This document shows positions 25,021 through 42,953 of a stretch of DNA of 64,000 bases, in pieces. The DNA is from Alicyclobacillus sp. GTDB lineage: Bacteria; Bacillota; Bacilli; Alicyclobacillales; Alicyclobacillaceae. The position numbers and the translations under genes are program-made. A model generated the notes under the pieces. The model did no database searches. It was not told where the DNA came from and was given only the letters and a program-made list of their open reading frames with translations. Within the stretch, counting starts at the first letter, position 1. The number at the start of each line of letters is the position of its first letter. Location: assembly GCA_023511295.1 (NCBI GenBank), contig JAIMBT010000023.1, positions 1-64,000 on the forward strand. Direction: 5' to 3'.

Positions 25021-25074
25021 TTTATCCACCCCCGTATCATTCCAGCTCATCTATGTGAACGGTGAACGGATCGT

Positions 25075-26810: not shown

Positions 26811-26862
26811 GCATCAGCAGCTTCACCGCGCATGCGCTTTCGACCGAATCGAATCACGAGAC

Positions 26863-27573
26863 CTAAGCCATCCGGCAGAGCATCCCCTCTAACTCCTCCA
26901 CGGACCACACACGGACGACGCTGTCGACGTGCGCAGCGGCTGGCGTACAGAGGGCCGCCTGATAACCCGCCGCCACGCGACAGGAAGTGATCTTCCACTG
27001 GGTTCCGGACGTACCGTCGGCGAGACAGGCATCTCCCTCCTCGGCAGGAACGACGCAGAACGATGAAAGGGGTTCAGCGAATCCCCGCCCCATCGCTTTC
27101 ACGTAGCTTTCCTTGCGCGTCCAAATCTCGTAGAATCGCACCAACTGCCGTGCGGCACTGCCTTGCGCAGCGATGTCTCGTTGCTCCGCGGGATGCAGGT
27201 AGCGGTGAACGGCACCGTGATTGAACGGTTGCATGTACTGGATGTCCACCCCGACCTCGGCCGTCCCGACGGCGCACAGAATCCACTCCCGAGAGTGCGA
27301 GACGTTGTAATGAACCTGAGAAGTCCCCCGCAGGGACGGTTTCCCGTGCTCGTTCCGTTCAAATGCCAGTTGGTGGTTCTTCACCTGCAAGCGCTCGCCC
27401 AGCACCGCCCGCACCAACAGGTCGGCCACCACAATCTGCCGGCTTGCCATGGGGTCCAGACATCGGGACACGCGCTCCTGCTGGTCCTCCGCGAGAAATC
27501 CCAGGAACTTGCGCCGCAGTCTGTCTGCTCCCTCCGGTTTCCATGTCACGGCGACGAGATTCACCCTGCACAT
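26863..27573 (-). CDS. 4'-phosphopantetheinyl transferase, Sfp type
   Basis: 236 residues. It should load the phosphopantetheine arm of CoA onto the ACP serine of the neighbouring KS-AT-ACP protein. The Sfp-family motifs are present: HYNVSHSREW, GVDIQYM, and FYEIWTRKESYVKAMGRG (the W-x-x-K-E-x-x-x-K core). Start ATG 27571-27573 lies 28 bases after pfaD; a GTG three codons later is also possible, and the ribosome site is weak in both cases. It is the last gene of the lipid synthase run. An Sfp-type enzyme serving secondary-lipid synthases in addition to AcpS is the usual arrangement. Confidence 0.9.
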   Translation of the reverse strand: MCRVNLVAVTWKPEGADRLRRKFLGFLAEDQQERVSRCLDPMASRQIVVADLLVRAVLGERLQVKNHQLAFERNEHGKPSLRGTSQVHYNVSHSREWILCAVGTAEVGVDIQYMQPFNHGAVHRYLHPAEQRDIAAQGSAARQLVRFYEIWTRKESYVKAMGRGFAEPLSSFCVVPAEEGDACLADGTSGTQWKITSCRVAAGYQAALCTPAAAHVDSVVRVWSVEELEGMLCRMA

Positions 27574-27601
27574 AGCGCGCCCTGTTCGCCTGTCCAATCG
27601 G

Positions 27602-29194
27602 TCACAAGGGGCGGGGCCGGAACGCGAACACGCTGCTCGGCATGCGGACACCGGCACTTCGCAGTTGTTGTGCCCGCGTGGCAACCGCAGCCCCCTCCAG
27701 CAAATTCAGCGCCATCTGCACGACTGATCTGCGCTGCACATCTTCTAAAAACGAGCCCTGCACCCATTCGTTGAACGCCCCCATCGCTGGCCCACACCAA
27801 ATTTGGTAGTCCATCTGCCTGTCTCGCTGTCCGCGAATCGCCCACTTGCTGGCGTTTCCTAAATACCAACGAAACACCAGCGCCATCTTGTGCTTGGAAT
27901 CGGACTCCGCCTTTTGTACCTGGGACGCGTCGCGCAGGGCAAAGAACGACCGCGTGCTGGCCCAGATCTCGTCCAACGGCGTCCGGAAGATCTCCCTTTC
28001 CAGCCGCGACCGAACCTGACTTGGAATGTCCGTTAGCCCCCCATACGACCGGTACAGTTCGTACAGTTGCGTTGCCCTGGACGCGAACAGCGTGCCCCGC
28101 TTCAGCACCTGGACCTTCGCACCCAGTTCGAACATGTCGGCCGCAGGTGCGGTCGCGACGTCCGTGGCGGTCGCCTGTGCCAACATCGCCTTGACGGCGT
28201 CGGATGCACCGGACTCCACCGCACACTGGTTGATAGATCCGGTCAAGACGTATGCCGCACCCGCAGCGAAGGCTGCAGCGGCGCTTTGCGGCGTTCCAAT
28301 CCCGCCCGCCGCGCCGACGCGCACGGGCCGGACATAGTGAAATCGCTCGCAGATCTCATCCCGCAGGCGCAAGATCTCCGGCAGAAGCACGAGCAATGGC
28401 CGCCCGTCCGTATGTCCGCCGGAATCTGCCTCGACCGTGATGTCCTCCGCCACTGGCAAGCCCGCAGCCAATTCGGCCTCCTCTGCCGTGAGTTGCCCCA
28501 GCCGGACCAGTTCGCCGAGCATCTCCGGCGGTGCAGGCGACAAAAACTGCCTCGCGACTTCGGCGCGGGAGATCTTCGCAAACACGTGGTGCGGACGCAC
28601 AACCCGTCCATCGGAGGTTCTGCGGAGCCCAGCGCACGCAAAGCGGACCACCGCGGGCGTCAGCCGCAAGAAGGCGGACGCAGAAATGCGACTGACGCCA
28701 GAGCGGAGGTACAAATCCACGAGAGCCGCTTCGAGCGCAGGGTCGTACGGCGAGTGAATCAGGTTCACGCCCCACGGACGCCCACTGGAGCCAAGCTCCG
28801 CCCGCATCTCCTGAACGGCTCGCTCGACCGTTTCCACGCTGAGCCCGCCAGCTCCGAAGAAGCCCATCATGCCCGCGTTCGCCATGGCGATGACCATCCG
28901 GCTGGTCGCAATCCCGTTTGCCATCTCGCCGGCAAGGTACGGGAACCGCAAGCGGTGGGTCTCGAGGAACGACGCGTCACCCAGCCACTCTGGGTGGCAC
29001 GGGGGGACGGTGGCCATCCAGGCGAGGGGACCCCGCCCGCTTTGACCCACGTGCGCTTCCCAGTCCGAGCTCGTGACCACCGCCATCGTGTTCGTGCTCT
29101 GGTTCACCACGATGTGCAGCGGCTCTCGAATTTGTTCGACCGCGAACTTCAGGTAACTGGGTTGAAAAATGTCGACTGCGCTGACCGCTTTCAT
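27602..29194 (-). CDS. pfaD: PfaD-type enoyl reductase of PUFA/polyketide synthases
   Basis: 530 residues. PfaD proteins are FMN-dependent TIM barrels of the nitronate-monooxygenase family that reduce enoyl intermediates on the ACP. Family segments are GMMGFFGAGGLS, an AAGGIGTPQSAAAAF flavin-phosphate region, and the PfaD-specific C-terminal part (QVLKRGTLFASRATQLYELY). Length fits PfaD (about 530-550). The ATG at 29192-29194 has GAGGGGTG about ten bases before it and lies 43 bases after the dehydratase-acyltransferase gene. It would act as the trans enoyl reductase of the synthase encoded upstream. Confidence 0.92.
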   Translation of the reverse strand: MKAVSAVDIFQPSYLKFAVEQIREPLHIVVNQSTNTMAVVTSSDWEAHVGQSGRGPLAWMATVPPCHPEWLGDASFLETHRLRFPYLAGEMANGIATSRMVIAMANAGMMGFFGAGGLSVETVERAVQEMRAELGSSGRPWGVNLIHSPYDPALEAALVDLYLRSGVSRISASAFLRLTPAVVRFACAGLRRTSDGRVVRPHHVFAKISRAEVARQFLSPAPPEMLGELVRLGQLTAEEAELAAGLPVAEDITVEADSGGHTDGRPLLVLLPEILRLRDEICERFHYVRPVRVGAAGGIGTPQSAAAAFAAGAAYVLTGSINQCAVESGASDAVKAMLAQATATDVATAPAADMFELGAKVQVLKRGTLFASRATQLYELYRSYGGLTDIPSQVRSRLEREIFRTPLDEIWASTRSFFALRDASQVQKAESDSKHKMALVFRWYLGNASKWAIRGQRDRQMDYQIWCGPAMGAFNEWVQGSFLEDVQRRSVVQMALNLLEGAAVATRAQQLRSAGVRMPSSVFAFRPRPL

Positions 29195-29237
29195 GCGTCT
29201 GACACCCCTCCCTGGATTGGCATGACCGGTGGCCTCC

Positions 29238-32200
29238 CTAGTCGACGAACACAACCCGTGGTCCACCCGGCCCATACAGCAACTCCGCGACATGTCCCAA
29301 CCAGCGGCCGTGGGCATCTCCCTGCAACCGCAACACGCCATCCTGAAGACCCTGCAGGAGTTGTACGGCGTCTGGCCCCGGATGCCGCAACGCCAGCAAA
29401 CCGGCAACGAGGAGCGCGTACGCGGGGTCCATGTTCCACCGGCCAACCAGGCGGGAAACATCGGCAGCCAGGGCCTTGTTGGCCCGGTTCAACCCACCTG
29501 TTCTGGATACCGCGCCGGTCTGGTTGATGGCCTCCAGAATCAACTTCTTGCGGTCCAGCAGGTGCCGGTCCCGAAGCTGCTGCGGGTCAATCGGCGAACC
29601 GAAAAACACATCCTGCGGTGCCAGACCAGCGGGCACATCCAGCAACTCTTGCACCGGCCGCACAGGCAAACCGCCGCCAAACCACACGGGTACGATGGGC
29701 AGGCCTTCGTTCATGGCGAAGTCGACCAGCCCGGCGCTGATATTGCGGACGACATCCCGGGCGCTGTACATCCGCGCGCCCTCCACGTGAATCAGCACGG
29801 AGTGTCCCGTTTCGCGAACCTGGTTTCCAAGTTGTTCCAGCAACGGGATCAGCGAGAGGCCGTCCTGTTGTTGGAAGTACACCAGCAATTCCGAGAGACG
29901 GACGGAGGGATGCGCCATCGCGTCGACCAGTTGGCCAACCCACGAGTCTCGATGCTCCGCCTTGGACACGGCCATGACAGGCGTACGGTGCAGCGCTGCG
30001 GCCAGGTAGAGAAACCACATCGACTCAATGGCGGTCTGGTGATTCGCCATGAAGATGACGGGTTTGCCCCTCTGGCCTTCCAACCCGGCCGGGTCGAGGA
30101 TCTGAACCCGCCGTGTCATGACCTCAATCAACCCCGTCATGAGGTCGTCTACCAACCATCCACTGGGAGCTCCAGCGTACGCTTGCCAGAACCCAACGAG
30201 GCGGGACACGTCCCGGACGGGCCGCCCACGGTCGGAAACCTGTATCTGGCCGCCCTCCGCCGCCGTTGCGAGGTGGTACTGCACGAGAGGATTCCTCTCC
30301 GACCACGCGCGGTCGCCCTCTTCCGACACAGTGACAAACCGCGGATGCACTTGCTCTTTTCGCGCCACATGTTCTTTGACCGCGACGGTCCTGCCCAGCG
30401 CAGGCAACCGTTCGCCGGTCGCGTAGACCGCATTCACGGTTCCCGGGAACCAGTCGAAGCTCTTGACGTCTGCAAGTTGGAGCCGCGTCGTGGCGCCGTC
30501 CCAGACCGACAGGTGGACATTCGGGACATACACTCGGTCCCGTAAAAACCGTCGCAGGTCCGCCAGGTCGACCTCTGCCAGAACGCCTTTCGGAAACAAC
30601 ACGCCGACCAAGCGCAGGGTCAGGATGTCCCTGTCCCCTTGGTACATCCGAACTCGAAACGCCGGAAACTTCTCTCCGCCAAAGAAGCCATCGGGCCGCA
30701 GCTCACAGGACACCGTCCCCGCGTCCGGAATCGGCCGATGGATGCGCGCCCACTCGATGGCTTTCGGAAAGACCACGTACGCCTCCGAGAGTTCCGGAAA
30801 AGCCAGGTTCAGCCGATGGTTTGGAATCCCGTGCGTCAAGCCATCCAGCAACAGCTGGTTCAGGCAGCCCTTCGGGACGGACCGGATGGACGCGTCCAGC
30901 GTGTAATCGGCACCGTTTCTCCCATAGCTGATCTCCTGAACCACCTGAAACGTCGGGCCGTGCATCATGCGGCCCGCCTGATACGGGTGCCCGTCGTCGC
31001 TCGGGTCTATCAGCCGCTCGAGAGGCGCGCAGGGAACCGCCCCCGGATAGCCAGACCCCAACAGCACCCGGCCCTGCGCAATCGGCTCGTACCGGGAGAG
31101 CGCCTCGGTCAAGGCGTCCCGCCAGCACAGCAGGGTCACATCCAGCGCATCGGGATTGTCTGGATTCGGCGCAACTTCCGTCCGTAGATGGCGCGGTTTG
31201 TCGCAAACCAACCAGTTGTTCACCTGGACTTGCTCCAAGCCGATGACCACCGCGCCCGGGCGGGTCGCCAGGGCGGCCGCCGCGAGGCGGTCTACCATGA
31301 ACATGAAGGGCAGCGCTGGTGCGGTGTACGTCGGACAATGGTCGTTCAGCCAGGTTTGTACGGCTGGGTCGATGATTTCGCCGCCTCCGTCCGACGTGCC
31401 AACAGGTGCTTCGCCCCATTCGTCCGCCTGGTTGGCAAGGCGGATGCCGAGGTTGTGGACACGGTAGATCTTCTTTCCATCCACCCACAAGGTACCGTCC
31501 GCCATCACCGTCACGCCGGACGCCGAGCGTTCAATGGACGATACCTCCAAATCGACGGTGATCTGACCATTGGTCGGCAAGACTTGGCCGCGGTAGGTCC
31601 ATTCACAAGACTGCGTCGAGACGTGGGCAAACACCGGGTCAGGGATCCCCGCATGAAGGGATTTCTGAAGGCTGAAACATTTCAACAACTGGATCATCGC
31701 TTCGATGCCGAGTGACCCGGGCTGTACCGGATCCGTGTAGAAGTGCGCTTTGAAAAACCAATCGCTCGGCCGGACCTGTTTCTCGCCGCGGATTCTGCCG
31801 AGCCCGAACCGGCCACCCTCCGGCCAGTAGCCGCTGACCCGGTCAATCATCAGCAGATCAGACTGCAGGAGGAGCGGCGGTTCCGACCCGTGCTGGCCCG
31901 GCACCGGCAGGCTCACCGGAGCGGAAGACGCTTCATGGAGACGATCTCGCTCCTCGTCCGTCGTCGGTAGGCCAACCTGCCGCGCCAGGTCCTGTCGCGT
32001 GAAGTACCCGAAGGTCGCCTCCGCGCGGAAGACGACCTCACCGCGCGCTGTACAGGTGATTTCATACGTTCCAATCCACGTGTCCATGAACCTGGATTGC
32101 GACACCAAGGTTGCCTCGGTGCGGATGGTACCGACGTCAGGACGAAGCGTCCGGTACTGTACGCTGGAACCGTCGAGGTTCCGAAACCAGCGGTCTTTGT

Positions 32201-33347
32201 TGGACTCAAGCGGGACCCCCACGTACAGAGCCAACCAGCCGCACGGCTGCAGCGCCGTCTCGAGCAGGATACAAAACGGCAGGGTCCCACCGTTTGCTGC
32301 AAAATACCACGCGTCCGGTGGAACGTCATACTCGGCCACCACCTTCAGCTTGCGGTCCGTGTCACCCGGGTCCGGCACTTCGACGTCGCAGATCCGCGAC
32401 AGGCACTGATACGCGGGTCCCGGCAAACGAGAGAACTGGCGTTCCGTGTCAAAGGCCTGGTAACGGGAGCCGAGCGCACGGGACGGCCGGCCAAGCGAAA
32501 ACTCCGCCATGGCCAGGCGATTGAACACAATCTCTCCATCCGAGAACGCCGGGACATCGTCCTCGATGTTCATCAGTTCGGGATGGTCCCGCAGAGGCCA
32601 GTCCGGCACGAGCGCCGCAGCGAATCCCTCGCCCTGCCACGTGTGCACCCCACCTGTCACGCACACGTTGGCGCGAACCCTGTACTCCGCCGGATGCAGG
32701 TGCATCTCCATCGCGACAACCGGATATTCTCGCAGCCAGGCGAGACTCCCCTGTGTCGCTTGGAACCCGGACGTCTGTTCGAAGCGCCACCCATCGTGGT
32801 CCAGGGTCTGCCCGGCCTGTATCATGTAGGCTGCCAGCGCCTGCAAACTGGCGGTCTCCACCCGATTCAGCAGGTCGCGCTCGGTTCCGGCCAGGTCGCT
32901 GGACCGTCGCTGAAAATCACATGCCACCTGCAGAACGACGGCGCCCGGCTCCGTCCCGTCCGCCACGCGGTGGATGGTCATTCCTTCGAGGAACAGCGAA
33001 TCCGACTGAGGCAGGCGCGGCGTCCGGACGTGCGCGTCGCACCGTGTAAAATCCCGGCCGAAACACTCCGCAACCCGGCCGTCCGCAAGCAACTGGAGCT
33101 GATCTTTCGACAGCACCGCGGAGTCGACGACCTCTACCTCTGTGGTGTCGTAGGGTTCCCATCCCATCTGGCCGACGGTGCAGAGCAGGAGTCCCTGGTT
33201 GTCCATGTACCTCTGATAGAGAGAGAGGGACGCGTTCAGATACTGTTGATGGGCCTGCCACACACCGCGATACCACCGCCGCCAGTCGTGTGAGGCCTGA
33301 CCCTCGTCCACACCGGCCTCAAGGTCGATTGGTTCCTGCGCCTTCAA
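29238..33347 (-). CDS. Pfa-like dehydratase protein with C-terminal PlsC-type acyltransferase (DH-DH-AGPAT)
   Basis: 1369 residues. An N-terminal hot-dog unit carries YDVPPDAWYFAANGG and LETALQPCGWLALY (residues about 340-375), typical of PfaC-type FabA-like dehydratases. A second has LLMIDRV and AHFYTDPVQPGSLGIEA with likely catalytic H535. A third, weaker hot-dog stretch lies near residues 780-880 (KGCLNQLLLDGLTHG). The C-terminal part is a PlsC-like acyltransferase: H1103-E1108 in NHQTAIES is the HX4(D/E) motif and HVEGARMYS fits the second block. No KS or chain-length factor is present, unlike classical PfaC. I chose the TTG at 33345-33347: GGAGGTGA lies seven bases upstream and the codon overlaps the stop of the KS-AT-KR gene. 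It probably dehydrates beta-hydroxyacyl-ACP and then hands the chain to a glycerol-type or other acceptor. Confidence 0.87.
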   Translation of the reverse strand: MKAQEPIDLEAGVDEGQASHDWRRWYRGVWQAHQQYLNASLSLYQRYMDNQGLLLCTVGQMGWEPYDTTEVEVVDSAVLSKDQLQLLADGRVAECFGRDFTRCDAHVRTPRLPQSDSLFLEGMTIHRVADGTEPGAVVLQVACDFQRRSSDLAGTERDLLNRVETASLQALAAYMIQAGQTLDHDGWRFEQTSGFQATQGSLAWLREYPVVAMEMHLHPAEYRVRANVCVTGGVHTWQGEGFAAALVPDWPLRDHPELMNIEDDVPAFSDGEIVFNRLAMAEFSLGRPSRALGSRYQAFDTERQFSRLPGPAYQCLSRICDVEVPDPGDTDRKLKVVAEYDVPPDAWYFAANGGTLPFCILLETALQPCGWLALYVGVPLESNKDRWFRNLDGSSVQYRTLRPDVGTIRTEATLVSQSRFMDTWIGTYEITCTARGEVVFRAEATFGYFTRQDLARQVGLPTTDEERDRLHEASSAPVSLPVPGQHGSEPPLLLQSDLLMIDRVSGYWPEGGRFGLGRIRGEKQVRPSDWFFKAHFYTDPVQPGSLGIEAMIQLLKCFSLQKSLHAGIPDPVFAHVSTQSCEWTYRGQVLPTNGQITVDLEVSSIERSASGVTVMADGTLWVDGKKIYRVHNLGIRLANQADEWGEAPVGTSDGGGEIIDPAVQTWLNDHCPTYTAPALPFMFMVDRLAAAALATRPGAVVIGLEQVQVNNWLVCDKPRHLRTEVAPNPDNPDALDVTLLCWRDALTEALSRYEPIAQGRVLLGSGYPGAVPCAPLERLIDPSDDGHPYQAGRMMHGPTFQVVQEISYGRNGADYTLDASIRSVPKGCLNQLLLDGLTHGIPNHRLNLAFPELSEAYVVFPKAIEWARIHRPIPDAGTVSCELRPDGFFGGEKFPAFRVRMYQGDRDILTLRLVGVLFPKGVLAEVDLADLRRFLRDRVYVPNVHLSVWDGATTRLQLADVKSFDWFPGTVNAVYATGERLPALGRTVAVKEHVARKEQVHPRFVTVSEEGDRAWSERNPLVQYHLATAAEGGQIQVSDRGRPVRDVSRLVGFWQAYAGAPSGWLVDDLMTGLIEVMTRRVQILDPAGLEGQRGKPVIFMANHQTAIESMWFLYLAAALHRTPVMAVSKAEHRDSWVGQLVDAMAHPSVRLSELLVYFQQQDGLSLIPLLEQLGNQVRETGHSVLIHVEGARMYSARDVVRNISAGLVDFAMNEGLPIVPVWFGGGLPVRPVQELLDVPAGLAPQDVFFGSPIDPQQLRDRHLLDRKKLILEAINQTGAVSRTGGLNRANKALAADVSRLVGRWNMDPAYALLVAGLLALRHPGPDAVQLLQGLQDGVLRLQGDAHGRWLGHVAELLYGPGGPRVVFVD

Positions 33348-36300
33348 CTGGATTTCACCTCCGTCCGGCCCATGCCCATGGCCGTGCCCGTCGCTTGCAA
33401 AACGACCTCGGGGTTGCCGTCTCCGCGGAGCAGTTCCTCCACGAATGCGCGCGCACCCGTTTGGATGTCGATGAGGCCCAGGCCAAGGCGCGTCAGATGG
33501 GCCTTCAGTGCGCCATCCACCATGCCACCGTCCCACGGCCCCCAGCCAATCGACCGCACGACGCACGATGCGCCGCGCCGGGCCTGTTCCTGTCTCGCGA
33601 TTTTGTTCAGGACTTCATTCGCCATCGCGTAGTCGCTCTGACCCGGATTCCCGTATCGCGCTGCCACCGAGGAAAACAGGCAGATCAGTTTGAGTGGATC
33701 TTCCTTGGTTGCCTCGAGAAATACTTGTAACGGGCGCACCTTCGTTGCAAAGACGCGCCGGAACTGATCCACCGACTTCTCCGTGATGCGCGCATCCTCA
33801 ATGACCCCCGCACCGTGAATCAGGCCGGAGATTGCGCCAAACTGGCGCCTTGCCCATTGAATGGAGGCCTGCAGTGCCTGCCGGTCGCTGACGTCCACGG
33901 ACTGGTAGGCCACCTTTGCGCCTGCTTGCGTCAAGCGACGCAACGTATGGCGCACTTCGCGCTCGGCCACCAGGTCCTTGGCGCGCCTGGATAACTCGGC
34001 AGGGGCGGGACGTCGACCGGCTTCCCGCTCCGTTCTCCAGAGCCACTCCATGATTTGTGGAGCCTCCAAGTCTTCGAGCTCCGGGCGCCCTTCGCGAAGG
34101 CGTGTGCGGCCGAAGATGACAAACTGCGGTTGCACTTCCTGCGCCAGTGCCTCCAGGCAGCGGCCCGTGACACCCCGCGCGCCGCCTGTGACGAGGACCA
34201 CCGACCCCGCGTCGAGCGGCATCGCCACGCCGCCGTGGCTTGCGTGGGACAGTGGGCGCCGCTCGACAACCGGCGTCACACGACCACCGCCGGCTGCCAG
34301 CCCGACTTCCAGCGTCGGCCCACCGTGGCGCATCTCTTCATACATGCGTTGTGCAATCCAATCCGCACGCTGCCCCGCCATGGCGATGTCGAGGACCTTG
34401 ACCTTCACACCCGGCCACTCCCTGGCCACCGTCTTGCCCAAACTCGCGATGCCAGCCGACCACACGCGGACCCCCCCCCGGCCGGAAGCACCAAAGTCGC
34501 CGTCCGTCGATTGAACCAAGACGAGCCGGCCTTGTTCTCGAAACCCAGAGGGCAGCCCCTGACACAGGCGGAACGCCTCCTCGTTACACCCTATCGCGGA
34601 TTCGATATCGTCCATCTCGCGGAGGGCTGCGAGGTGAACCACCAACCCGGCGTCCTCTGGAACCTGGTCGACAACCGACGCGCGGTATCCTGCGTCGCGG
34701 AACACGCGCACCAGCGCCTGCGCCACGCCGCGGCCGTCATCCGTCACCGCCACGAGCTGGTGCTGAGGAAATCCATCCAGGAACGACGGCCCGCCGGGCA
34801 TGACGGGCGCCAAGGTCACGATCCCCCTGTCGACCGTCGGCTGCGCCGCAGGGGCCGACCCGCTCTGGTGGACCCGCGGATACGGTTTCCCGTAGTTTGA
34901 TCCGTTCAGCATCACCACCGCCCCTGTGCCCGCGTCGCGATGCGTCCGTGCAGGCTTCCGAACTTCCTGGAACTCCTGCCAGAGGGCGGCGAAATCGATA
35001 CGGAGGCCCGCCACTGCCAACTCGGCCAGTCCATTCCAGAACCCGTTCATCCGCTGACCGCGTTTATCGAGGCTGACCACCACCGCCTGGCGCTCACCGA
35101 GGCACTGCGCGGTGAGTCCTGTCAGGGTTGATCCCGGTCCAACTTCGATGTAGGTCCGGACGCCCGCGTCGTACATCGCGTCGACCTGGGCTTGGAACAG
35201 GACGGGCTTCGCCAGTTGTTGCGCAATCTGGCGCTTGATTTGGGCGCCCGCGGATGGATAGGGCTTGGCATACGTGTTCGAGATGACGGGAGTCACGGGG
35301 CGCGAAACCTTCATCTTCGCGAGCGTTGCCGCAAGGTCCCCTGTGGCCGCCGCCACCAACGGCGAGTGAAACGCCGTGGACACGTTGAGGCGAGTGGAGC
35401 GGATGCCCTGCTGGGTCAGCCGCCGCTCCAGCTCGAGCACGTCGTCTTCGGGTCCGCCGACGACCACCTGTTCCGGTGCGTTTCGATTCGCCACGACGAC
35501 GGGCAGGTCGCGCATGAGGTCCCTGAACGCAGATTCCTGTGCGAACACGCTCAACATGGCGCCTGGGGTGTCGGATGCCGCAGCCATCAACTCGCCCCGA
35601 CGCCGCGCGAGCGCCAGCAGGGTCCGGGCGTCCATCGCACCGGCCGCGTGGAGGGCCGTCAATTCGCCAAAGCTGTGGCCGGCCATACAGTCCGGCTGGA
35701 TGTTCAAGGACCGGAGCACCGCCAATCCGGCCATGCTCGCCACCGCAATACACGGTTGCGCCCACTCCGTCCGCGTCAGCCGCTCCCGCTGCGCCTGGCG
35801 CGCCGCTTCGCTGAACACCGGCTGCGGAAAGACTACGTCGTGTACCCGAAGCCCGTCCTCTATCTCCACCTCTGCCGCCTCATCCCACACCGCCCGCGCT
35901 GCCTCAAAGGTCATCGCCAAGTCGGCGCCCATCCCGACATACTGGCTCCCCTGCCCCGGAAACAGGAACGCCACCTTCCCCGGCTCCCGGCCAACCGCGT
36001 AATGCAGCCGGTTCATCTGGCGGACGCTCCGCTCCGGTTCCACCTGCATGTGCGAAATCGCCTGCTCCAAACGCTCCCCCAGTTCTGCTTCATCTGCGGC
36101 GAGAACCGCGAGGCGCACCGGCTGCGCGCTGTCCCACGCCAGCTGCGTCCGCCTCGCCAACTCGACGAGCGTTGCGCCTGCCGCCCGCTCTGCCTGCAGC
36201 TGCCGGCTCTGTTCCATCACGTCCTCTGCGCTCGCCCCGCTCACCAGCACCAGTTCCACCGCACTCGTCCGCAGCTTCCCCGGACGCTGTGGGCCCTGGT

Positions 36301-37696
36301 ACTCCTCCAGGGTCACGTGGTAGTTGCTGCCCCCAAACCCAAACGAACTCACCGATGCGCGCCGCGGTTGGCCCTTCGCGCGAATCCACGGCCTCGCCTC
36401 TGTGTTCAGGTAGAACGCACTCTCGTCCAGCTTTAAGTCAGGGTTCGGACGCTCCACCTTAATCGTCGGCGGCAGCACTTTGTGGTGGAGCGCCATCACC
36501 GCCTTGAACAACCCAGCGGCCCCGGCCGCCGCCTTCGTATGCCCAATCTGCGACTTCACCGACCCCAGCGCACACCACGCCTGCGACGGCTTGCCCTCTG
36601 CCTCGAACACGTCCCGCAACGCTTCGACCTCCGCGGCATCCCCGGCGGCCGTCGCCGTCCCATGTCCCTCGACCAACTCCACCGTGCGCGGCGAATACCC
36701 CGCCATTTCGTACGCTCGGCGCAGCGCCTTCGCCTGCCCCTTGGCATGCGGGGCATACACACTCTTCGCCCGGCCGTCTGACGACGACCCGATTCCCCGT
36801 ATCACCGCGTAGATGGCGTTGCCGTCCCGCTCCGCATCCGCCAACCGCTTGAGTGCCAACACCCCGACCCCTTCGCCGAGGATGGTCCCGTCCGCCTTGT
36901 CGGAAAACGGCCGGCTGTCCCCGGTGGGAGACAGAGCAGGCGTCTTCGTGAAACACATGAACGTGAAGATGGTGTTCAGCGCGTCCACACCGCCCGTGAG
37001 CATCAGGTCGGCAGAACCGCTCTCCAGCGCCCTGATTGACATTTCCACCGCTGCCAAGGAGCTCGCGCAGGCCGCGTCCACCGTGCAATTCTCGCCGCCG
37101 AGGTTGAGCCGGTTCGCGATTCTCCCCGCCACCACGTTGCTCAGCAACCCCGGAAACGTGCTCTCACTCCAGGGCGTGAATCGGGCTTCGATTGCGTCGC
37201 AGATCACGCGCACCCGCTCTTCCGCAAACCCGCGCTGCTTCAGAACCCGCTGCCAGATGGGCCGACCGATTCTGCCGACCATATCCGAGGCCAGCTGCGT
37301 CCCGGAGGCGACCCCCAGAATCACGCCGACCCGGTCGAGTTCTGGAAAGCTTTGTTCAGCCAGGCCCTCACCCATAACTTCACTCAAGACCTGCTTGGCC
37401 AGCAGGAGCGCGAGCAGTTGCGTGGTATCGGTATGGCGAAGGAGGTTGGGCGGCATCCCGAATTCCAGCGTCGAAAACGGCACCGCGGGGATGAACCCGC
37501 CCTTGCGGCCGTACGTCTTGTCTCGCGTGCCGGGATTGGGATTGTAATAGTCCTCCACCAACCAATGGGAGGGCGGCACGTCCGTGATGCGGTCACTGCC
37601 CGTGAGGATGTCCCTCCAAAACCCGACGCGATTCGTCGAACCAGGAAACAGGGTCTCATATCCGACAACGGCAATCGCCATGCTTTGCGCTGACAT
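33344..37696 (-). CDS. Pfa-like synthase subunit KS-AT-KR
   Basis: 1450 residues. A ketosynthase occupies about residues 1-450: active-site C210 in TVDAACASS, histidines in EGHGTATAAG and GSVKSQIGHTKAA. An acyltransferase follows (about 570-870; S675 in GHSFGE; STAFHSP, a malonyl-type motif). After a linker of unknown role comes a ketoreductase (about 1160-1420; TGGARGVTGR; active-site Y1356 in GQSDYAMANE). No ACP is visible, so it must work on the ACP of the partner protein. Residues about 174-678 are almost identical to the same part of the KS-AT-ACP protein. The ATG at 37694-37696 follows GGAGGGGTGGAG. It lies 36 bases after the KS-AT-ACP gene. Confidence 0.92.
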   Translation of the reverse strand: MSAQSMAIAVVGYETLFPGSTNRVGFWRDILTGSDRITDVPPSHWLVEDYYNPNPGTRDKTYGRKGGFIPAVPFSTLEFGMPPNLLRHTDTTQLLALLLAKQVLSEVMGEGLAEQSFPELDRVGVILGVASGTQLASDMVGRIGRPIWQRVLKQRGFAEERVRVICDAIEARFTPWSESTFPGLLSNVVAGRIANRLNLGGENCTVDAACASSLAAVEMSIRALESGSADLMLTGGVDALNTIFTFMCFTKTPALSPTGDSRPFSDKADGTILGEGVGVLALKRLADAERDGNAIYAVIRGIGSSSDGRAKSVYAPHAKGQAKALRRAYEMAGYSPRTVELVEGHGTATAAGDAAEVEALRDVFEAEGKPSQAWCALGSVKSQIGHTKAAAGAAGLFKAVMALHHKVLPPTIKVERPNPDLKLDESAFYLNTEARPWIRAKGQPRRASVSSFGFGGSNYHVTLEEYQGPQRPGKLRTSAVELVLVSGASAEDVMEQSRQLQAERAAGATLVELARRTQLAWDSAQPVRLAVLAADEAELGERLEQAISHMQVEPERSVRQMNRLHYAVGREPGKVAFLFPGQGSQYVGMGADLAMTFEAARAVWDEAAEVEIEDGLRVHDVVFPQPVFSEAARQAQRERLTRTEWAQPCIAVASMAGLAVLRSLNIQPDCMAGHSFGELTALHAAGAMDARTLLALARRRGELMAAASDTPGAMLSVFAQESAFRDLMRDLPVVVANRNAPEQVVVGGPEDDVLELERRLTQQGIRSTRLNVSTAFHSPLVAAATGDLAATLAKMKVSRPVTPVISNTYAKPYPSAGAQIKRQIAQQLAKPVLFQAQVDAMYDAGVRTYIEVGPGSTLTGLTAQCLGERQAVVVSLDKRGQRMNGFWNGLAELAVAGLRIDFAALWQEFQEVRKPARTHRDAGTGAVVMLNGSNYGKPYPRVHQSGSAPAAQPTVDRGIVTLAPVMPGGPSFLDGFPQHQLVAVTDDGRGVAQALVRVFRDAGYRASVVDQVPEDAGLVVHLAALREMDDIESAIGCNEEAFRLCQGLPSGFREQGRLVLVQSTDGDFGASGRGGVRVWSAGIASLGKTVAREWPGVKVKVLDIAMAGQRADWIAQRMYEEMRHGGPTLEVGLAAGGGRVTPVVERRPLSHASHGGVAMPLDAGSVVLVTGGARGVTGRCLEALAQEVQPQFVIFGRTRLREGRPELEDLEAPQIMEWLWRTEREAGRRPAPAELSRRAKDLVAEREVRHTLRRLTQAGAKVAYQSVDVSDRQALQASIQWARRQFGAISGLIHGAGVIEDARITEKSVDQFRRVFATKVRPLQVFLEATKEDPLKLICLFSSVAARYGNPGQSDYAMANEVLNKIARQEQARRGASCVVRSIGWGPWDGGMVDGALKAHLTRLGLGLIDIQTGARAFVEELLRGDGNPEVVLQATGTAMGMGRTEVKSS
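35663..37176 (-). repeat. Long direct repeat, copy in KS-AT-KR gene
   Basis: This 1514-base block matches 39497-41010 at a constant offset of 3834 bases. I see three mismatches, all within the first 75 bases (plus-strand order), and none after. It covers the last two thirds of the KS and the AT up to the active-site GHSFGE. The flanks diverge abruptly on both sides. Confidence 0.93.
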
Positions 37697-37732
37697 CTCC
37701 ACCCCTCCTCTCGGTTCCTGCACAGGGCCTGG

Positions 37733-40700
37733 TCATCGTCCGCTGACTCCGGCCGCGGTCGTTTCCGCCTGCTGGACGTACGTAATCACCTGCCGCAGCG
37801 TGCCCAGCGTTGCCAATTCGCTCAACGAAATCTCTGGCAGCGTCGGCACCCGGTCCTGAACGGCCGATAAGATCTCCACGCGCTTGATGGAGTCAATCCC
37901 GAGGTCCCCTTCCATGTCCATGTCCAATTCCAGGATGTCGCGCGGATACCCCGTCTTCTCCGCGACGATATCGAGAAACACCTCCGCGATGTCGGTGGAC
38001 GGGTGGGGTACCATCGCGCTTGTCTCGTCCGCTCCGCTGATGACATGGGTAGCGGCGGGCGGGCTCGCTGCGGCCTGGCTCCCGGGCGCATCCACGGTCT
38101 CCGCACCCCGTGCAGGCTGGGCCGCTTCCAGGGAAGGTGCCACCTCCGCAACACCCGGTTCCAGCCCATCGGTGCTTGGCGCGTCGAAACGCGGAGCCGG
38201 AAACGAGGGGGCGGGGAGTGAAGGTGCTGGAATCGCAGCCGCTCGGTAGGCCGGCCGCTCCGGTTCTAGAACGATGTCGCCGTGTGTCGCCGCCACTTGA
38301 CGGATGGCGAGATCACAGAGCCGCAGATACGTCTCATGTACTTCTGCCATGGTCTTCTGATAGGAAATGTGCGCTTCCGTCATGTGGTTCTGCAGCTCCT
38401 GCAGGATGAGGAGTCTTTCGTTGACGCGCGTGCACGGATGGTTCACGGTTTGTCCTCCTTCTTCGAATGAAAGATTTGGGAAGGGTTCGAATCGCAGGGT
38501 CCCTACGGGTGCGGAGACCTCGTGTGCGCTCCCGTGCGCCATACGCAGAGCTGGAGCGGGCTCAACCGGTGGTTCCGGCTGCTGCATCCGAATCGCCCAA
38601 TCCCGGTCCTCCGACGCCCCCGACGCCTCCGCCGACGATTCCCTCGACGACGCCGCCGTGTTCACCGGCACGGGTTCCTCCACGGGTTGGTCGAGGAACC
38701 GGGTCGGATAGGGGCGGTTGCTGTTGGCGCCAGAGATTGTGACGCGAGGGCCGTTGGAACTGCGCAAAGACGCGGAGTCGGTCGCCGACTCCGACTCCGG
38801 AAATTCCGCCCACATCGACGCCAGGTGCATCGGGACGCCGGCCACGGCCAACTGGGCCAGCGCATTCCACAGACCCGTGAGTCCACGCGAGTTGTTGCGA
38901 TCTAGGCTGACGATGGTCGCCTCTTGGCCCTCCAGACACTGTTCCGTGATCCCGGCGAGGACAGACCCAGGGCCCACTTCGATGAACGTCCGCACCCCAT
39001 CGCGGTACATCGCAGCGACCTGTTGCGCGTACAGAACCGGACGGGCCGCAACCTGAACGTACTGATTCAGCACCTCCTCGCTCGTCTTCGCCGCATACTT
39101 CTCACCCGTCAGACACGAGTACACATCCACCATCGGCGTCCTCGCCGGATACGCTGTGAGCAGTTCGCGAAACGGTGGCAAAATCGGCTCGGCGGCCGGA
39201 GAGTGAAATGCGACGTCGACTGGAATGGGCTGCAGGCGCGTTCTGGCAGGCAGCCGCTCCTTCAACTGCTCGATTTGCGCGGGTTGACCGGTGACCACGC
39301 ATTGCTTCCGAGAGTTGTAGTTCGCAATGGAGACCCCGCAGGCTTCGAACAGAGGGCTCAATTCGTCCACATCGGTCCTGCTGAAGACAGCGGCCATCGC
39401 ACCAGGCGCGGTGTCCTTCGCGAGGCGGGCCACACCCCGACAAATTTCAATGGTGGAAGCCATCTCCCATACGCCGGCTGCATACAGGCTGGTGGTTTCG
39501 CCAAAGCTGTGGCCAGCCATACAGTCCGGCTGGATGTTCAAGGACCGCAGCACCGCCAATCCTGCCATGCTCGCCACCGCAATACACGGTTGCGCCCACT
39601 CCGTCCGCGTCAGCCGCTCCCGCTGCGCCTGGCGCGCCGCTTCGCTGAACACCGGCTGCGGAAAGACTACGTCGTGTACCCGAAGCCCGTCCTCTATCTC
39701 CACCTCTGCCGCCTCATCCCACACCGCCCGCGCTGCCTCAAAGGTCATCGCCAAGTCGGCGCCCATCCCGACATACTGGCTCCCCTGCCCCGGAAACAGG
39801 AACGCCACCTTCCCCGGCTCCCGGCCAACCGCGTAATGCAGCCGGTTCATCTGGCGGACGCTCCGCTCCGGTTCCACCTGCATGTGCGAAATCGCCTGCT
39901 CCAAACGCTCCCCCAGTTCTGCTTCATCTGCGGCGAGAACCGCGAGGCGCACCGGCTGCGCGCTGTCCCACGCCAGCTGCGTCCGCCTCGCCAACTCGAC
40001 GAGCGTTGCGCCTGCCGCCCGCTCTGCCTGCAGCTGCCGGCTCTGTTCCATCACGTCCTCTGCGCTCGCCCCGCTCACCAGCACCAGTTCCACCGCACTC
40101 GTCCGCAGCTTCCCCGGACGCTGTGGGCCCTGGTACTCCTCCAGGGTCACGTGGTAGTTGCTGCCCCCAAACCCAAACGAACTCACCGATGCGCGCCGCG
40201 GTTGGCCCTTCGCGCGAATCCACGGCCTCGCCTCTGTGTTCAGGTAGAACGCACTCTCGTCCAGCTTTAAGTCAGGGTTCGGACGCTCCACCTTAATCGT
40301 CGGCGGCAGCACTTTGTGGTGGAGCGCCATCACCGCCTTGAACAACCCAGCGGCCCCGGCCGCCGCCTTCGTATGCCCAATCTGCGACTTCACCGACCCC
40401 AGCGCACACCACGCCTGCGACGGCTTGCCCTCTGCCTCGAACACGTCCCGCAACGCTTCGACCTCCGCGGCATCCCCGGCGGCCGTCGCCGTCCCATGTC
40501 CCTCGACCAACTCCACCGTGCGCGGCGAATACCCCGCCATTTCGTACGCTCGGCGCAGCGCCTTCGCCTGCCCCTTGGCATGCGGGGCATACACACTCTT
40601 CGCCCGGCCGTCTGACGACGACCCGATTCCCCGTATCACCGCGTAGATGGCGTTGCCGTCCCGCTCCGCATCCGCCAACCGCTTGAGTGCCAACACCCCG

Positions 40701-41524
40701 ACCCCTTCGCCGAGGATGGTCCCGTCCGCCTTGTCGGAAAACGGCCGGCTGTCCCCGGTGGGAGACAGAGCAGGCGTCTTCGTGAAACACATGAACGTGA
40801 AGATGGTGTTCAGCGCGTCCACACCGCCCGTGAGCATCAGGTCGGCAGAACCGCTCTCCAGCGCCCTGATTGACATTTCCACCGCTGCCAAGGAGCTCGC
40901 GCAGGCCGCGTCCACCGTGCAATTCTCGCCGCCGAGGTTGAGCCGGTTCGCGATTCTCCCCGCCACCACGTTGCTCAGCAACCCCGGAAACGTGCTCTCA
41001 CTCCAGGGCGCGTAGCCGTCCGCAATCGCGTCACAGATCTCCTCCACCTCTTCTTCAGGAACCGCACAGGCCCGCAGGGCATCCGCCCACAGCGGTCGTT
41101 GCAGGCGGGCCGACATCTCGGTGAAGCCTTCGGTGGCGCCGATGGAGCCGAGAATCACGCCAATCCGATCTCGGTCGATCTCCACGCTCGTGCCCTTCAT
41201 CGCGTCATCGAGTGCCCGTTTGGCCGCCAACAACGCCAGCAACTGCGCTGTGTCGGTGTGCGGTATGACACTTGGTGGGATGCCGAAATCGAGGGCCGGG
41301 AACTCCACTGGCGTCAGAAAAGCCCCGCGCTTCGCGTACGTTTTGTCTTGCGTGCCAGGATTGGGATTGTAATAGTCCTCCACCAACCAATGGGACGAAG
41401 GAACCTCCGTCACCAGGTCTCGACCTTCGACAATGCTCCTCCAAAACCCCGACGTATCGGTCGAACCGGGAAAGAGCGCGGAACAACCGACGATGGCAAT
41501 TGGGACGCTCCGCAACTCAGACAA
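37733..41524 (-). CDS. Pfa-like synthase subunit KS-AT-ACP
   Basis: 1263 residues. Ketosynthase (about 1-450; C208 in TVDAACASS), acyltransferase (about 570-870; S673 in GHSFGE; DVAFHSP, malonyl-type), a long Pro/Ala-rich linker with a helical stretch, and one C-terminal ACP with phosphopantetheine serine S1212 in GDLGIDSIKRVEIL. That ACP motif is the form typical of PfaA and heterocyst-glycolipid synthases. PfaA proteins usually carry five or more tandem ACPs; here there is one. I chose the TTG at 41522-41524: GGAGGGGAG lies nine bases upstream and the codon overlaps the stop of the MFS gene by eight bases. An in-frame ATG further up lies inside that gene and has no ribosome site. Confidence 0.92.
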   Translation of the reverse strand: MSELRSVPIAIVGCSALFPGSTDTSGFWRSIVEGRDLVTEVPSSHWLVEDYYNPNPGTQDKTYAKRGAFLTPVEFPALDFGIPPSVIPHTDTAQLLALLAAKRALDDAMKGTSVEIDRDRIGVILGSIGATEGFTEMSARLQRPLWADALRACAVPEEEVEEICDAIADGYAPWSESTFPGLLSNVVAGRIANRLNLGGENCTVDAACASSLAAVEMSIRALESGSADLMLTGGVDALNTIFTFMCFTKTPALSPTGDSRPFSDKADGTILGEGVGVLALKRLADAERDGNAIYAVIRGIGSSSDGRAKSVYAPHAKGQAKALRRAYEMAGYSPRTVELVEGHGTATAAGDAAEVEALRDVFEAEGKPSQAWCALGSVKSQIGHTKAAAGAAGLFKAVMALHHKVLPPTIKVERPNPDLKLDESAFYLNTEARPWIRAKGQPRRASVSSFGFGGSNYHVTLEEYQGPQRPGKLRTSAVELVLVSGASAEDVMEQSRQLQAERAAGATLVELARRTQLAWDSAQPVRLAVLAADEAELGERLEQAISHMQVEPERSVRQMNRLHYAVGREPGKVAFLFPGQGSQYVGMGADLAMTFEAARAVWDEAAEVEIEDGLRVHDVVFPQPVFSEAARQAQRERLTRTEWAQPCIAVASMAGLAVLRSLNIQPDCMAGHSFGETTSLYAAGVWEMASTIEICRGVARLAKDTAPGAMAAVFSRTDVDELSPLFEACGVSIANYNSRKQCVVTGQPAQIEQLKERLPARTRLQPIPVDVAFHSPAAEPILPPFRELLTAYPARTPMVDVYSCLTGEKYAAKTSEEVLNQYVQVAARPVLYAQQVAAMYRDGVRTFIEVGPGSVLAGITEQCLEGQEATIVSLDRNNSRGLTGLWNALAQLAVAGVPMHLASMWAEFPESESATDSASLRSSNGPRVTISGANSNRPYPTRFLDQPVEEPVPVNTAASSRESSAEASGASEDRDWAIRMQQPEPPVEPAPALRMAHGSAHEVSAPVGTLRFEPFPNLSFEEGGQTVNHPCTRVNERLLILQELQNHMTEAHISYQKTMAEVHETYLRLCDLAIRQVAATHGDIVLEPERPAYRAAAIPAPSLPAPSFPAPRFDAPSTDGLEPGVAEVAPSLEAAQPARGAETVDAPGSQAAASPPAATHVISGADETSAMVPHPSTDIAEVFLDIVAEKTGYPRDILELDMDMEGDLGIDSIKRVEILSAVQDRVPTLPEISLSELATLGTLRQVITYVQQAETTAAGVSGR
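39497..41010 (-). repeat. Long direct repeat, copy in KS-AT-ACP gene
   Basis: Partner of 35663-37176. It encodes residues about 172-676 of the KS-AT-ACP protein. Beyond the ends the two proteins fall to roughly half identity in the KS N-terminus and lower in the AT C-terminus. Confidence 0.93.
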
Positions 41525-42920
41525 CCGTATCACTCCCCTCCGTTTGTGCATGACGGGCCTTCCAACGCCCGGGTCCCTTCGAGGCACGGCCGGCCTCCAG
41601 GCCCAGCAGGGTCAGCGCCATCAACGCCAGAAGCACGTACAGTGCCATGGTCCCGATGACCATCACCGCATACGAGGCGTCCAACCAGGCCGACAGGAGA
41701 GAAACCACCAAACCTGTCAGGAAACCAGCGAGGGAAGCCACGCTCTGCAGCAGGTTGAACCAGGTCAAGACGTGTTCACTACCGGCGTGCGCGATACGTG
41801 AACTCGCGTACTGCCTCGTGGTCAGTTGAAACAAGCCGTACGCACATCCAGCCAGGCAGGCCAACGTCAAGAAATACCCATAGGCCGGAACCACTTTCAC
41901 GAGCAGCATGACAACCGCAAACAGGTACAGCGTGGCCACGAAAAATCCCGCTCGGAGGACAGCCGCTGGCGACGGGTTGGTGCGTGCGCGTCGAATGGGC
42001 GCGAAACGGTACAGGGCAATCGCGAAGATACCGCACACGCTGCTGCAGCCAATCGCCATGCCGCCGAGTTGAACTGCGTTGTCGACGCGATAAAACTCTC
42101 TCAGGATATAGATGCAATTGGACGCCATCACCACCGATGACGAGAACATCGCGCAACTGAAGATGAGAAACAGCGCATCGCTTCGCCGTAGATTCGGCCG
42201 CGTCCAGTTCCGGTTAAGCGAACCGACACCGCCAGGTCCGCGGTCGTGTCGCAACGGCGAATAGGTGGTCAACACGGTGACCACGAGGCCGATACACAGT
42301 GCTGTGACAACGCCCGCGTTCACGCGAAATCCCTGAAACAGCGCGTAGTAGAACGGGCCGACGGTGATGGCCATCATTTGCGCGACGGTCGCTCGACTGA
42401 GATGCCCGTCCAATGCTGCACCAGACTGGGCTTGCACATATCGATTGTCCATGACATTGAAGACCAGCTCGACCGACGCTGCGACGACACAGGTCAGCAC
42501 GAGAAAGTCCAGGTAACGCCGGACCGCGAACATCCCCATCCAACATCCAGACAGGCCCACCCACAGCACCAACAGCAGGATGTTCCTCGTTCCTCTCGAC
42601 GACGCGTCCAGAAACCGGCCGACGCGCCTCGACAGCAGCGCACCTGCAATCGCGGAGAGCGAAGATGCCACGAGGCACGACATCAGCAGCTCGTCGCGGT
42701 TGCCACCGGCCCAGCGAAGCAGAAACGCCTGTGGAACGATGTTTTCCAGCCCATTGAACACGAGAGACCGCGCGAAGTAGACCAACGCGCATCGCTTTCC
42801 CAACGATGGCGCATCCCGCGAACTGAATCGACTCACGGTCCGATACACCCCCTCATCCAGACGCCGTCTCGTGGCATGGACAACGGATCGACATCGCCGC
42901 CTCGACATGTCGCGTTTCAA
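41517..42920 (-). CDS. MFS-type transporter, first gene of the lipid synthase run
   Basis: Up to 467 residues with about twelve hydrophobic segments and a basic N-terminal tail of about 40 residues. General MFS features are visible (a Gly/Arg-rich loop SRRVGRFLDASSRGTRN between helices 2 and 3). I do not recognise a specific subfamily. The start could be TTG at 42918-42920 or ATG four codons later; GGAAGGG lies upstream. Its stop overlaps the start of the KS-AT-ACP gene by eight bases, so the two are translationally coupled. It may export the lipid product or a precursor, but that is inference from position. Confidence 0.75.
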   Translation of the reverse strand: MKRDMSRRRCRSVVHATRRRLDEGVYRTVSRFSSRDAPSLGKRCALVYFARSLVFNGLENIVPQAFLLRWAGGNRDELLMSCLVASSLSAIAGALLSRRVGRFLDASSRGTRNILLLVLWVGLSGCWMGMFAVRRYLDFLVLTCVVAASVELVFNVMDNRYVQAQSGAALDGHLSRATVAQMMAITVGPFYYALFQGFRVNAGVVTALCIGLVVTVLTTYSPLRHDRGPGGVGSLNRNWTRPNLRRSDALFLIFSCAMFSSSVVMASNCIYILREFYRVDNAVQLGGMAIGCSSVCGIFAIALYRFAPIRRARTNPSPAAVLRAGFFVATLYLFAVVMLLVKVVPAYGYFLTLACLAGCAYGLFQLTTRQYASSRIAHAGSEHVLTWFNLLQSVASLAGFLTGLVVSLLSAWLDASYAVMVIGTMALYVLLALMALTLLGLEAGRASKGPGRWKARHAQTEGSDTVV

Positions 42921-42947
42921 GGCCCTTCCTGTCGCTTCCCGTCGTTT

Positions 42948-42953
42948 ATTCTA
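42948..42953 (-). promoter_or_regulatory. Possible -10 box of the lipid synthase run
   Basis: TAGAAT on the minus strand, about 28 bases before the MFS start. No convincing -35 box is visible at the right distance. The gap 42921-43189 otherwise holds the terminator of the symporter gene and the tandem CGTGGAACG repeat near 43010. Confidence 0.25.

Follow-up and report, generated by a model that had tools for sequence, protein, structure and literature searches.

Which kind of synthase is encoded by a run of six genes in Alicyclobacillus sp., and how did its unusual domain layout arise? The window analyzed is a 64,000 nucleotide stretch of contig JAIMBT010000023.1. The six ORFs are all on the minus strand, with ends that overlap or nearly abut. 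Our overall account, which we consider likely, is that a PfaA KS-AT has been duplicated in a synthase missing KS2-CLF-AT2, that gene conversion acts on the two copies, and that a shared-out division of labour yields a lipid product. Statements about the literature refer to the consulted parts of the cited papers.

The locus and its class

The genes and the parts discussed below are:

41517..42920, minus strand: gene M, membrane protein, first in the unit (ORF)
37733..41587, minus strand: gene A, KS-AT-ACP with PfaA-type KS (Pfam KS 29-524, AT 596-918, ACP 1204-1271); a true start nearer 41533-41551 is more likely
37775..37978, minus strand: single ACP of A (Pfam PP-binding 1204-1271)
33344..37723, minus strand: gene B, KS-AT-KR (Pfam KS, AT, KR); the start is probably 37696, an ATG with AGGAGG
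33530..34201, minus strand: KR domain of B (Pfam KR 1175-1398); its motifs are the active-site S-Y-N and TGGARG
29238..33566, minus strand: gene C, DH-DH-AGPAT (Pfam FabA 568-703, Acyltransferase 1165-1296); the start is probably about 33347
27602..29461, minus strand: gene D, PfaD-family enoyl reductase (TIGR02814); the true start is possibly 29194 (residue 90)
26863..27684, minus strand: gene E, Sfp-type PPTase (Pfam ACPS and AASDHPPT_N; motifs YNVSH, WTRKE)
39497..41010, minus strand: homogenised tract in A; it spans the KS core and the front half of the AT, with GHSFGE at its end (comparison with B)
35663..37176, minus strand: homogenised tract in B (comparison with A)
39431..39433, minus strand: codon of Val719 in A, which lies 25 positions beyond Ser694, the catalytic serine of the AT; malonyl-type ATs have Arg here
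21677..46668, no strand assigned: window segment repeated on contig C14 (28554-57604), 73-92% identical piecewise

By its sequence, the locus is a Pfa-type (secondary lipid) iterative synthase from the neighbourhood of the actinobacterial H and M types, not a modular PKS. An earlier note on this DNA had read it as a Pfa-type lipid synthase with a PfaD partner and had given the order KS-AT-ACP, KS-AT-KR, DH-DH-acyltransferase, PfaD and PPTase on the minus strand. The order agrees with the ORFs, with Pfam and NCBIfam and, for DH-DH, with blast; the class agrees with TIGR02814, for which gene D scores 658 bits (cut-off 449), enough to be assigned to the PfaD family, and with the KS trees.

In a tree of 92 KS rows, the four from this genome and 37 PfaA-type KS are separated by one branch (SH-aLRT 99.8) from 51 other KS, which are KS2, CLF and PKS from PfaD-bearing loci, with no separate set of cis-AT modular PKS. 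A modular PKS origin, which the earlier note proposed to check with such a tree, is ruled out by sequence identity and by this tree: our KS do not fall inside the PKS rows tested. Their neighbours are Frankia, Saccharopolyspora, Actinopolyspora and Streptomyces noursei. They form one clade with the actinobacterial KS (98/99), in which they branch off as sister to the 16 rows as a whole, outside both Frankia and Saccharopolyspora. Two part-trees of the KS contain 33 of the 37 PfaA-type rows (L057_11545, L096_2676, L118_2384 and L122_2 are omitted) and six of the 51 others as outgroup. Tree-tool warnings about long branches that meet concern the outgroup and a small number of distant rows.

The features expected of a Pfa synthase are mostly present. 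KS, ACP and KR, found in all clusters of PMC3098273, are detected by Pfam. The ketosynthases are PfaA-type in the KS trees, with B above the TIGR02813 cut-off and A below it. There is a FabA-like dehydratase/isomerase pair: gene C has one Pfam FabA match, with the motif HF..DPV.PGS, and both halves of its DH region show blast similarity to DH-DH proteins of S. noursei and Actinopolyspora; the first DH is recognised by similarity alone. A structure model of this region (pLDDT 37.6) is too poor for use. The AGPAT domain of C has the motif HX4E, where HX4D is usual. Tandem ACPs are absent: GIDSI at residue 1230 of A is the only DS[ILMV] site found by a motif scan, and B has none. Such ACPs are called distinguishing for Pfa synthases in PMC3098273, which nevertheless admits clusters with one ACP. 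The KS phylogeny places the locus with the actinobacterial H and M types, the domain organisation does not. We have rejected a heterocyst glycolipid synthase (Type F): gene C has DH domains and no KS-CLF, while HglC is KS-CLF-AT and Type F has no DH/I domains (PMC3098273).

A genome-wide search of this draft assembly of 42 contigs reveals neither the KS2-CLF-AT2 part of PfaC nor an AT of PfaB type. As the genome is a draft, an assembly gap could account for this. Of six strong KS matches, four belong to the clusters described here; the other two, 420 and 446 aa long, have TACA at the active site. Four further matches are weak and partial (25-33 bits). There are five ATs: A, B, the corresponding A2 and B2 of a second cluster, and a FabD-like one. 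Pfam finds no KS in gene C, which therefore lacks the KS-CLF didomain of classical PfaC. The locus indeed departs from the PfaA-B-C-D order, with neither this didomain nor a separate PfaB. The "complete iterative synthase" of the earlier note is thus iterative and Pfa-type, but not complete in the classical sense, as neither KS2-CLF nor a PfaB-type AT was found in the genome.

Among known systems, the closest are actinobacterial Types M (Frankia) and H (Saccharopolyspora) as defined by Shulse and Allen in 2011 (PMC3098273), with type letters assigned by genus and not by the test of that paper. They have a PfaD 47-63% identical to gene D, and their KS belong to the same clade. The contig search retained 80 of 147 relatives. 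Of the 18 mapped actinobacterial loci, 15 have a single ACP, as here; two short contigs end before the ACP, and Nocardia (L073) has two. These loci have one set of KS, AT, ACP and KR, while here KS-AT is doubled and KS2-CLF-AT2 was not found; L050, L051 and L052 contain an additional KS-containing protein. The nearest named PfaD by tree path belongs to plasmid AZO_p1 of Azospirillum lipoferum 4B (NC_016585, L134). The C-terminal half of a large protein of this plasmid resembles gene C (83% of C covered, 34% identity) and shares its AGPAT motif. However, Azospirillum has one KS-AT-ACP2-KR protein and an unsplit KS-CLF-AT-DH-DH-AGPAT protein. S. noursei (L061) and Actinopolyspora (L054) have ER, PfaA and a stand-alone DH-DH like those found here, with no second KS in the stretch examined, but their PfaA is single and they show no AGPAT match.

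Two copies of one KS-AT

Sequence comparisons strongly support a duplication by which a single PfaA KS-AT gave rise to the KS-AT of both A and B, with the ACP in A and the KR in B. The earlier note remarked on the unusual layout but missed the cause of the split: this duplication and a near-identical tract of 1.5 kb. Outside the tract, the N-termini of the two KS form their own clade (97/91), and the C-termini of the two ATs group together (95/93; the AT tree contains 42 of the 84 non-own rows). Both KS are PfaA-type in the tree. Against the PfaA model TIGR02813, with a cut-off of 1010 bits, B scores 1105 and A 935. The Cys-His-His motifs are intact in both, and 29 of 32 conserved N-terminal columns are kept.

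ORF-level annotation of seven actinobacterial sister loci shows one set of PfaA-type KS, AT, ACP and KR in each. The set is on one ORF in four of them (L048, L050, L054, L061) and on two neighbouring or overlapping ORFs in the other three (L047, L049, L067). A split PfaA is by itself nothing special, since three Frankiaceae loci read as split PfaA ORFs. The duplication may have followed either of two routes, between which the data do not discriminate: the whole KS-AT-ACP-KR was doubled, followed by reciprocal loss of KR and ACP, or a KS-AT copy was inserted between ACP and KR.

The two KS-AT pairs might instead derive from different ancient subunits, B for example from PfaC KS2, and be alike through recent conversion. 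The tract cannot show their origin, since it is homogenised, and split pfaA genes are known from Types D and H (PMC3098273), from one clade in PMC13291983 and from the Frankiaceae loci mentioned above. Nevertheless, we find separate origins very unlikely: outside the tract, A and B pair up in the trees of both the KS N-terminus and the AT C-terminus, and they do so among PfaA-type sequences, at a distance from KS2 and AT2. The KS N-terminus of B shares 29-44% identity with 36 of the 37 PfaA-type rows, 14% with the remaining one, which is truncated, and 17-29% with the 51 other KS; its tree rules out that the KS of B is a converted PfaC KS2.

The earlier note suggested an undescribed system. 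Clusters without CLF and split pfaA genes have already been described (PMC3098273, PMC13291983), so this can only be said of the duplicated layout of A and B, for which we have met no description in the part of the open-licence literature covered.

Concerted evolution in two clusters

The tract of A and B is 99.8% identical over 1514 bp, while the flanks beside it are 36-78% identical in windows of 90 bases. A second cluster, overlooked by the earlier note, lies on another contig, C14, and is about 82% identical to the first. Its genes A2 and B2 present the same tract with the same boundaries, 98.6% identical. Between the two clusters the tract differs by about 10%. The repeated segment also includes a sugar-type ABC transporter, a PALP enzyme, an Asp/Glu racemase, a dicarboxylate symporter and a polysaccharide deacetylase.

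Inside the tract, 145 sites unite the two genes of each cluster (A with B, A2 with B2), and no site supports another grouping. Outside it, 327 sites (110 and 217) pair A with A2, against eight (five and three) for the A-B pairing and three and three for the third pairing. This contrast points to concerted evolution. Fourfold sites give the same picture: within the tract, 3 of 286 differ between A and B and 9 of 285 between A2 and B2, but 74-79 of 266-270 differ between clusters. These comparisons strongly support gene conversion within each cluster as the process that has kept A and B nearly identical over the KS core and the front half of the AT. We have also looked for a GRINS-like skew: in blocks of 300 bases, the GC skew of the tract lies mostly between +0.1 and +0.3, and a strong TA skew is absent.

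An assembly artefact, with the reads from one gene assembled into both, would fit a draft of 42 contigs and the location of the mismatches near the tract ends in both clusters, but it is most improbable, given identical boundaries in two clusters which differ by about 10% within the tract, 145 sites that distinguish them and flanks too divergent for 1.5 kb to merge easily. A short-read assembler may possibly have smoothed a few differences in the middle of a real repeat, which the position of the mismatches fits, so the true A-B identity may be below 99.8%.

Acyltransferases, division of labour and product

The residue 25 positions after the catalytic serine is V in A and A2 and R in B and B2. 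It is R in all 64 non-own GHS-type ATs and in the fifth, FabD-like AT of this genome. Among eight GYS-type rows, arginine is missing in seven and present in one (L096_10758); 12 of the 84 non-own rows have no G[HY]SxG match and were left unscored. AT-A keeps 27 of 38 conserved C-terminal columns and AT-B 33. GHSFGE and AFHSP are retained in AT-A, which probably also retains the glutamine (WAQP, within the tract), if our equivalence is correct. According to PMC12895367, bacterial PfaB lacks the Gln-Arg pair, and its proposed origin is a duplicate of the PfaA KS-MAT. As AT-A lacks the malonyl-selecting arginine, A probably took a PfaB-like role in acyl transfer, and AT-B probably loads malonyl. 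The likeness to gammaproteobacterial PfaB is partial: the KS of PfaB is an inactive pseudo-KS, while that of A is intact and homogenised with B, and A keeps an ACP and probably the glutamine. We have also considered AT-A as a relic of a lost AT2. Its first residues are AT2-like (GETT, then W), but its whole C-terminal half is nearer to malonyl-type ATs and groups with B.

Alternatively, AT-A may have its arginine in a displaced position and be a normal malonyl transferase, which would make A and B largely redundant. It has RG at Ser+23, two residues ahead of the usual place; one alignment sets this RG opposite the arginine by means of a gap, two others set valine there, so AT-A may still have malonyl activity. 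The other AT motifs examined are also retained. On the other hand, the same residue state is kept in both clusters despite about 13% divergence of the region, none of the 64 GHS-type ATs departs from R at Ser+25, and in both clusters all six ORFs are free of internal stops. We consider this explanation unlikely.

In the division of labour that we infer, with AT-A as a PfaB-like transferase, the AT of B would load malonyl onto the ACP of A, activated by E. The two active-looking KS would split elongation, as KS1 and KS2-CLF do in classical synthases. KR of B, the DH pair of C and ER of D would modify the chain, in which some double bonds would persist owing to the FabA-like DH. The AT of A would handle acyl chains as PfaB does, and the AGPAT domain of C would hand the finished chain to a lysophospholipid-type acceptor. 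The likeliest product is a specialised long-chain, probably unsaturated, membrane lipid. The earlier note considered an unsaturated or hydroxylated lipid, and either may be the case.

Gene M might also act as exporter, and the product might be a lipid for export or serve as the starter chain of some other molecule, although we think this rather unlikely. Gene M, an MFS transporter in the earlier note, has no hit in either Pfam or NCBIfam at E<=0.001; nothing is found in PDB up to E=10, nor in PADLOC. It has many hydrophobic helices, and a single-sequence structure model (pLDDT 46) is too poor to name a fold. Its second copy (C14:35275-36669) is 79% identical and none is found in 40 relatives, so that among 41 genomes, this one included, it only appears beside the two clusters. 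Moreover, pfa-like enzymes supply hybrid metabolites elsewhere (PMC13291983), and the S. noursei cluster adjoins fatty-acyl-reductase-like and WS/DGAT-like (wax-ester-synthase-like) genes. However, there is no NRPS/PKS partner among the flanking genes scanned (part of the window genes), and the AGPAT domain suggests that a lipid receives the acyl chain, the analogy being with myxobacterial Pfa3, for which such a role is presumed (PMC6731297).

Returning to the lipid synthase, we tentatively suggest, with somewhat more doubt than confidence, that a megasynthase without KS2-CLF-AT2 rebuilt its second condensing half from a duplicate of the first. A would have re-evolved a PfaB-like terminal acyltransferase, B would load malonyl, and conversion would hold the cores identical, perhaps since they work as one (mixed) dimer. 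In modular PKS, concerted evolution also homogenises KS and AT within a cluster (PMC4256081). Those are multimodular PKS/NRPS; here, two subunits of an iterative lipid synthase are involved, with fixed boundaries and two clusters in one genome.

In summary, a Pfa-type synthase is added to an order in which a full-length PfaD match is found in only one of the 59 genomes searched, the present one. The architecture of an iterative synthase has changed: KS-AT is doubled and the remaining domains are shared out. Two clusters about 18% diverged, each internally homogenised, provide a natural replicate for concerted evolution. As the two ATs differ at one known specificity position, a PfaB-like shift from malonyl transferase to chain-handling acyltransferase is directly testable. 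If the second half was rebuilt as suggested, the step from which PfaB is proposed to have arisen would have been taken a second time, independently, and would be visible here at a stage where the KS has remained active.

Two copies of a Pfa-type lipid synthase cluster

The earlier note described a row of consecutive minus-strand synthase genes, and ORF and Pfam/NCBIfam domain annotation bears this out: Six genes follow each other from 42920 to 26863. They are listed here in that order, together with a second cluster found in the same genome.

M, minus strand: membrane protein
A, minus strand: KS-AT-ACP
B, minus strand: KS-AT-KR
C, minus strand: DH-DH-AGPAT
D, minus strand: PfaD
E, minus strand: PPTase
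Second cluster (A2, B2 and D2 are its counterparts of A, B and D): contig C14, about 35275-51293

The longest ORFs of A, B, C and D contain likely starts further inside, so the large ORF overlaps are partly ORF-calling effects. One flank of the cluster has a dicarboxylate symporter and a polysaccharide deacetylase, the other a sugar-type ABC transporter, a PALP enzyme and a racemase. G+C is 0.62-0.65 in the 4-kb blocks at 28-44 kb and 0.51-0.61 in the remaining blocks of the contig, except for one block at its start (0.675). A locus for galactan or galactoside use is found at 12469-20022 (LacI regulator, GH53, GH42, two ABC permeases and a binding protein).

A search of the whole genome, 3.43 Mb in 42 contigs and 99.6% complete, found two genes for PfaD and four KS of the cluster type. 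Positions 21677-46668 of the window are repeated in C14 (28554-57604), with a piecewise identity of 73-92%. The C14 repeat has lyase and racemase genes in addition to those of the window copy: A fumarase-type lyase and an additional Asp/Glu racemase lie between the symporter and gene M (L011:8571-10783). The six ORFs of either cluster have no internal stops, and a TGA reported near D2 is upstream of the ORF used for this gene.

Relatives, possible transfer and parts not found

Among 59 genomes of the order, our own included, PfaD matches at E<=1e-30 are only found in our genome and in G042, another member. The G042 PfaD is N-terminally shortened, fused to a short reductase-like start and adjoins a PPTase (L127:7974-9796), perhaps a remnant of a similar cluster. 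A phylum sample of 398 genomes, our own included, gives four PfaD matches at E<=1e-40: one is our genome, and the three others have a PfaD-like domain beside trans-AT-type ATs or PKS proteins. The best matches in the named species collection are from Frankiaceae, with up to 63% identity (80 of 147 relatives kept). Transfer from a donor resembling actinobacteria would be plausible, though in the PfaD tree our protein is placed beside the Actinomycetota, not inside.

Gene C corresponds to the DH-DH-AGPAT end of an unsplit KS-CLF-AT-DH-DH-AGPAT protein of Azospirillum lipoferum 4B, which adjoins a KS-AT-ACP2-KR protein. This pfa-like cluster is on plasmid AZO_p1 (L134:2533-17747), whose gene table has no entry there. 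The AGPAT motif is usually HX4D; that of gene C (29679-30074) is NHQTAIE, HX4E, and the Azospirillum counterpart has NHQVAVE. Myxobacterial Pfa3 likewise ends in an AGPAT, presumed in PMC6731297 to acylate 1-acylglycerol-3-phosphate.

Beyond the clusters, the whole genome has two strong KS matches, proteins of 420 and 446 aa whose active sites read TACA. Four further ones are weak partial matches (25-33 bits), perhaps thiolases, and the sole AT besides those of the clusters is FabD-like. KS2-CLF and AT2, parts of classical PfaC, were thus not found in a whole-genome search of the 42-contig draft. The Streptomyces noursei and Actinopolyspora stretches examined have no second KS either, and CLF-less clusters are known in other organisms, according to PMC13291983. 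After the pfa-like cluster of S. noursei (L061:10034-21561) come a fatty-acyl-reductase-like gene and one resembling a wax-ester synthase, pointing to a product that is a fatty alcohol or wax ester.

Doubling and concerted evolution of A and B

Trees were computed with LG+G4, some long branches being flagged. The KS tree of all 92 rows separates our four KS and 37 of PfaA type from 51 others (SH-aLRT 99.8). A and B share a near-identical tract, covering the KS core and the front half of the AT. Outside it, the KS N-termini form one clade, ((A,A2),(B,B2)), with support 97/91, adjoining 16 actinobacterial PfaA KS rows (98/99), and the AT C-terminal halves likewise join A and B (95/93). Seven actinobacterial sister loci annotated by ORF have one PfaA-type KS, AT, ACP and KR set each, on one ORF in four cases and on two in three. 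Because A and B group outside the tract and the sister loci have a single set, we conclude that KS-AT was doubled in this lineage. The whole unit may have been doubled, KR then being lost from A and ACP from B, or a KS-AT copy may have been inserted between ACP and KR. The three sister loci with PfaA domains on two ORFs are from Frankiaceae (L049:11559-18589, L047:5671-13010, L067:10165-18491), and these may be either real splits or draft frameshifts. Among them, Parafrankia soli has KS-AT-ACP with KR apart.

Inside the tract the KS tree groups the two genes of each cluster, ((A,B),(A2,B2)). Identity there is 99.8% between A and B (1514 bp) and 98.6% between A2 and B2 (1512 bp), against 36-78% in the A and B flanks (90-base windows). 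The boundaries are alike in both clusters, from the codons of PWSESTFPG (KS) to those of GHSFGE (AT). Among 1512 tract positions, 145 sites unite the two genes of each cluster (A with B, A2 with B2), none any other way. Before the tract 110 sites pair A with A2 (other pairings 5 and 3), after it 217 (3 and 3). Fourfold-degenerate tract sites differ at 3/286 and 9/285 within clusters and at 74-79 of 266-270 between them, so the likeness reflects DNA copying, not protein constraint. From these counts and the pairings we infer that a first homogenising event would be older than the cluster duplication, and that later events kept each pair alike. The leftover mismatches lie close to the tract ends, as expected from real conversion and from assembler smoothing alike, so the pattern can be relied on but not the precise identity value.

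Possible roles of A and B

Both KS look active, because they keep the catalytic motifs and 29/32 conserved N-terminal columns. The ATs keep 27/38 (A) and 33/38 (B) of the conserved C-terminal columns. The Arg that malonyl-type ATs carry 25 residues after the catalytic Ser is present in all 64 GHS-type AT rows other than our own and in the FabD-like AT of the genome, and missing from 7/8 AT2-type (GYS) rows. B and B2 have this Arg, A and A2 have Val. PMC12895367 states that the Gln-Arg pair on which malonyl specificity depends is absent from bacterial PfaB, and proposes a duplicated PfaA KS-MAT as the origin of PfaB. The glutamine is probably still present in A, since its region is inside the tract. 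As judged from these residues, A and B may divide their labour; the weakest link is an RG that lies two residues before this position in A and could make up for the absent Arg. The synthase is of a known kind, but its PfaA has been doubled and its domains shared out between two genes that evolve in concert.
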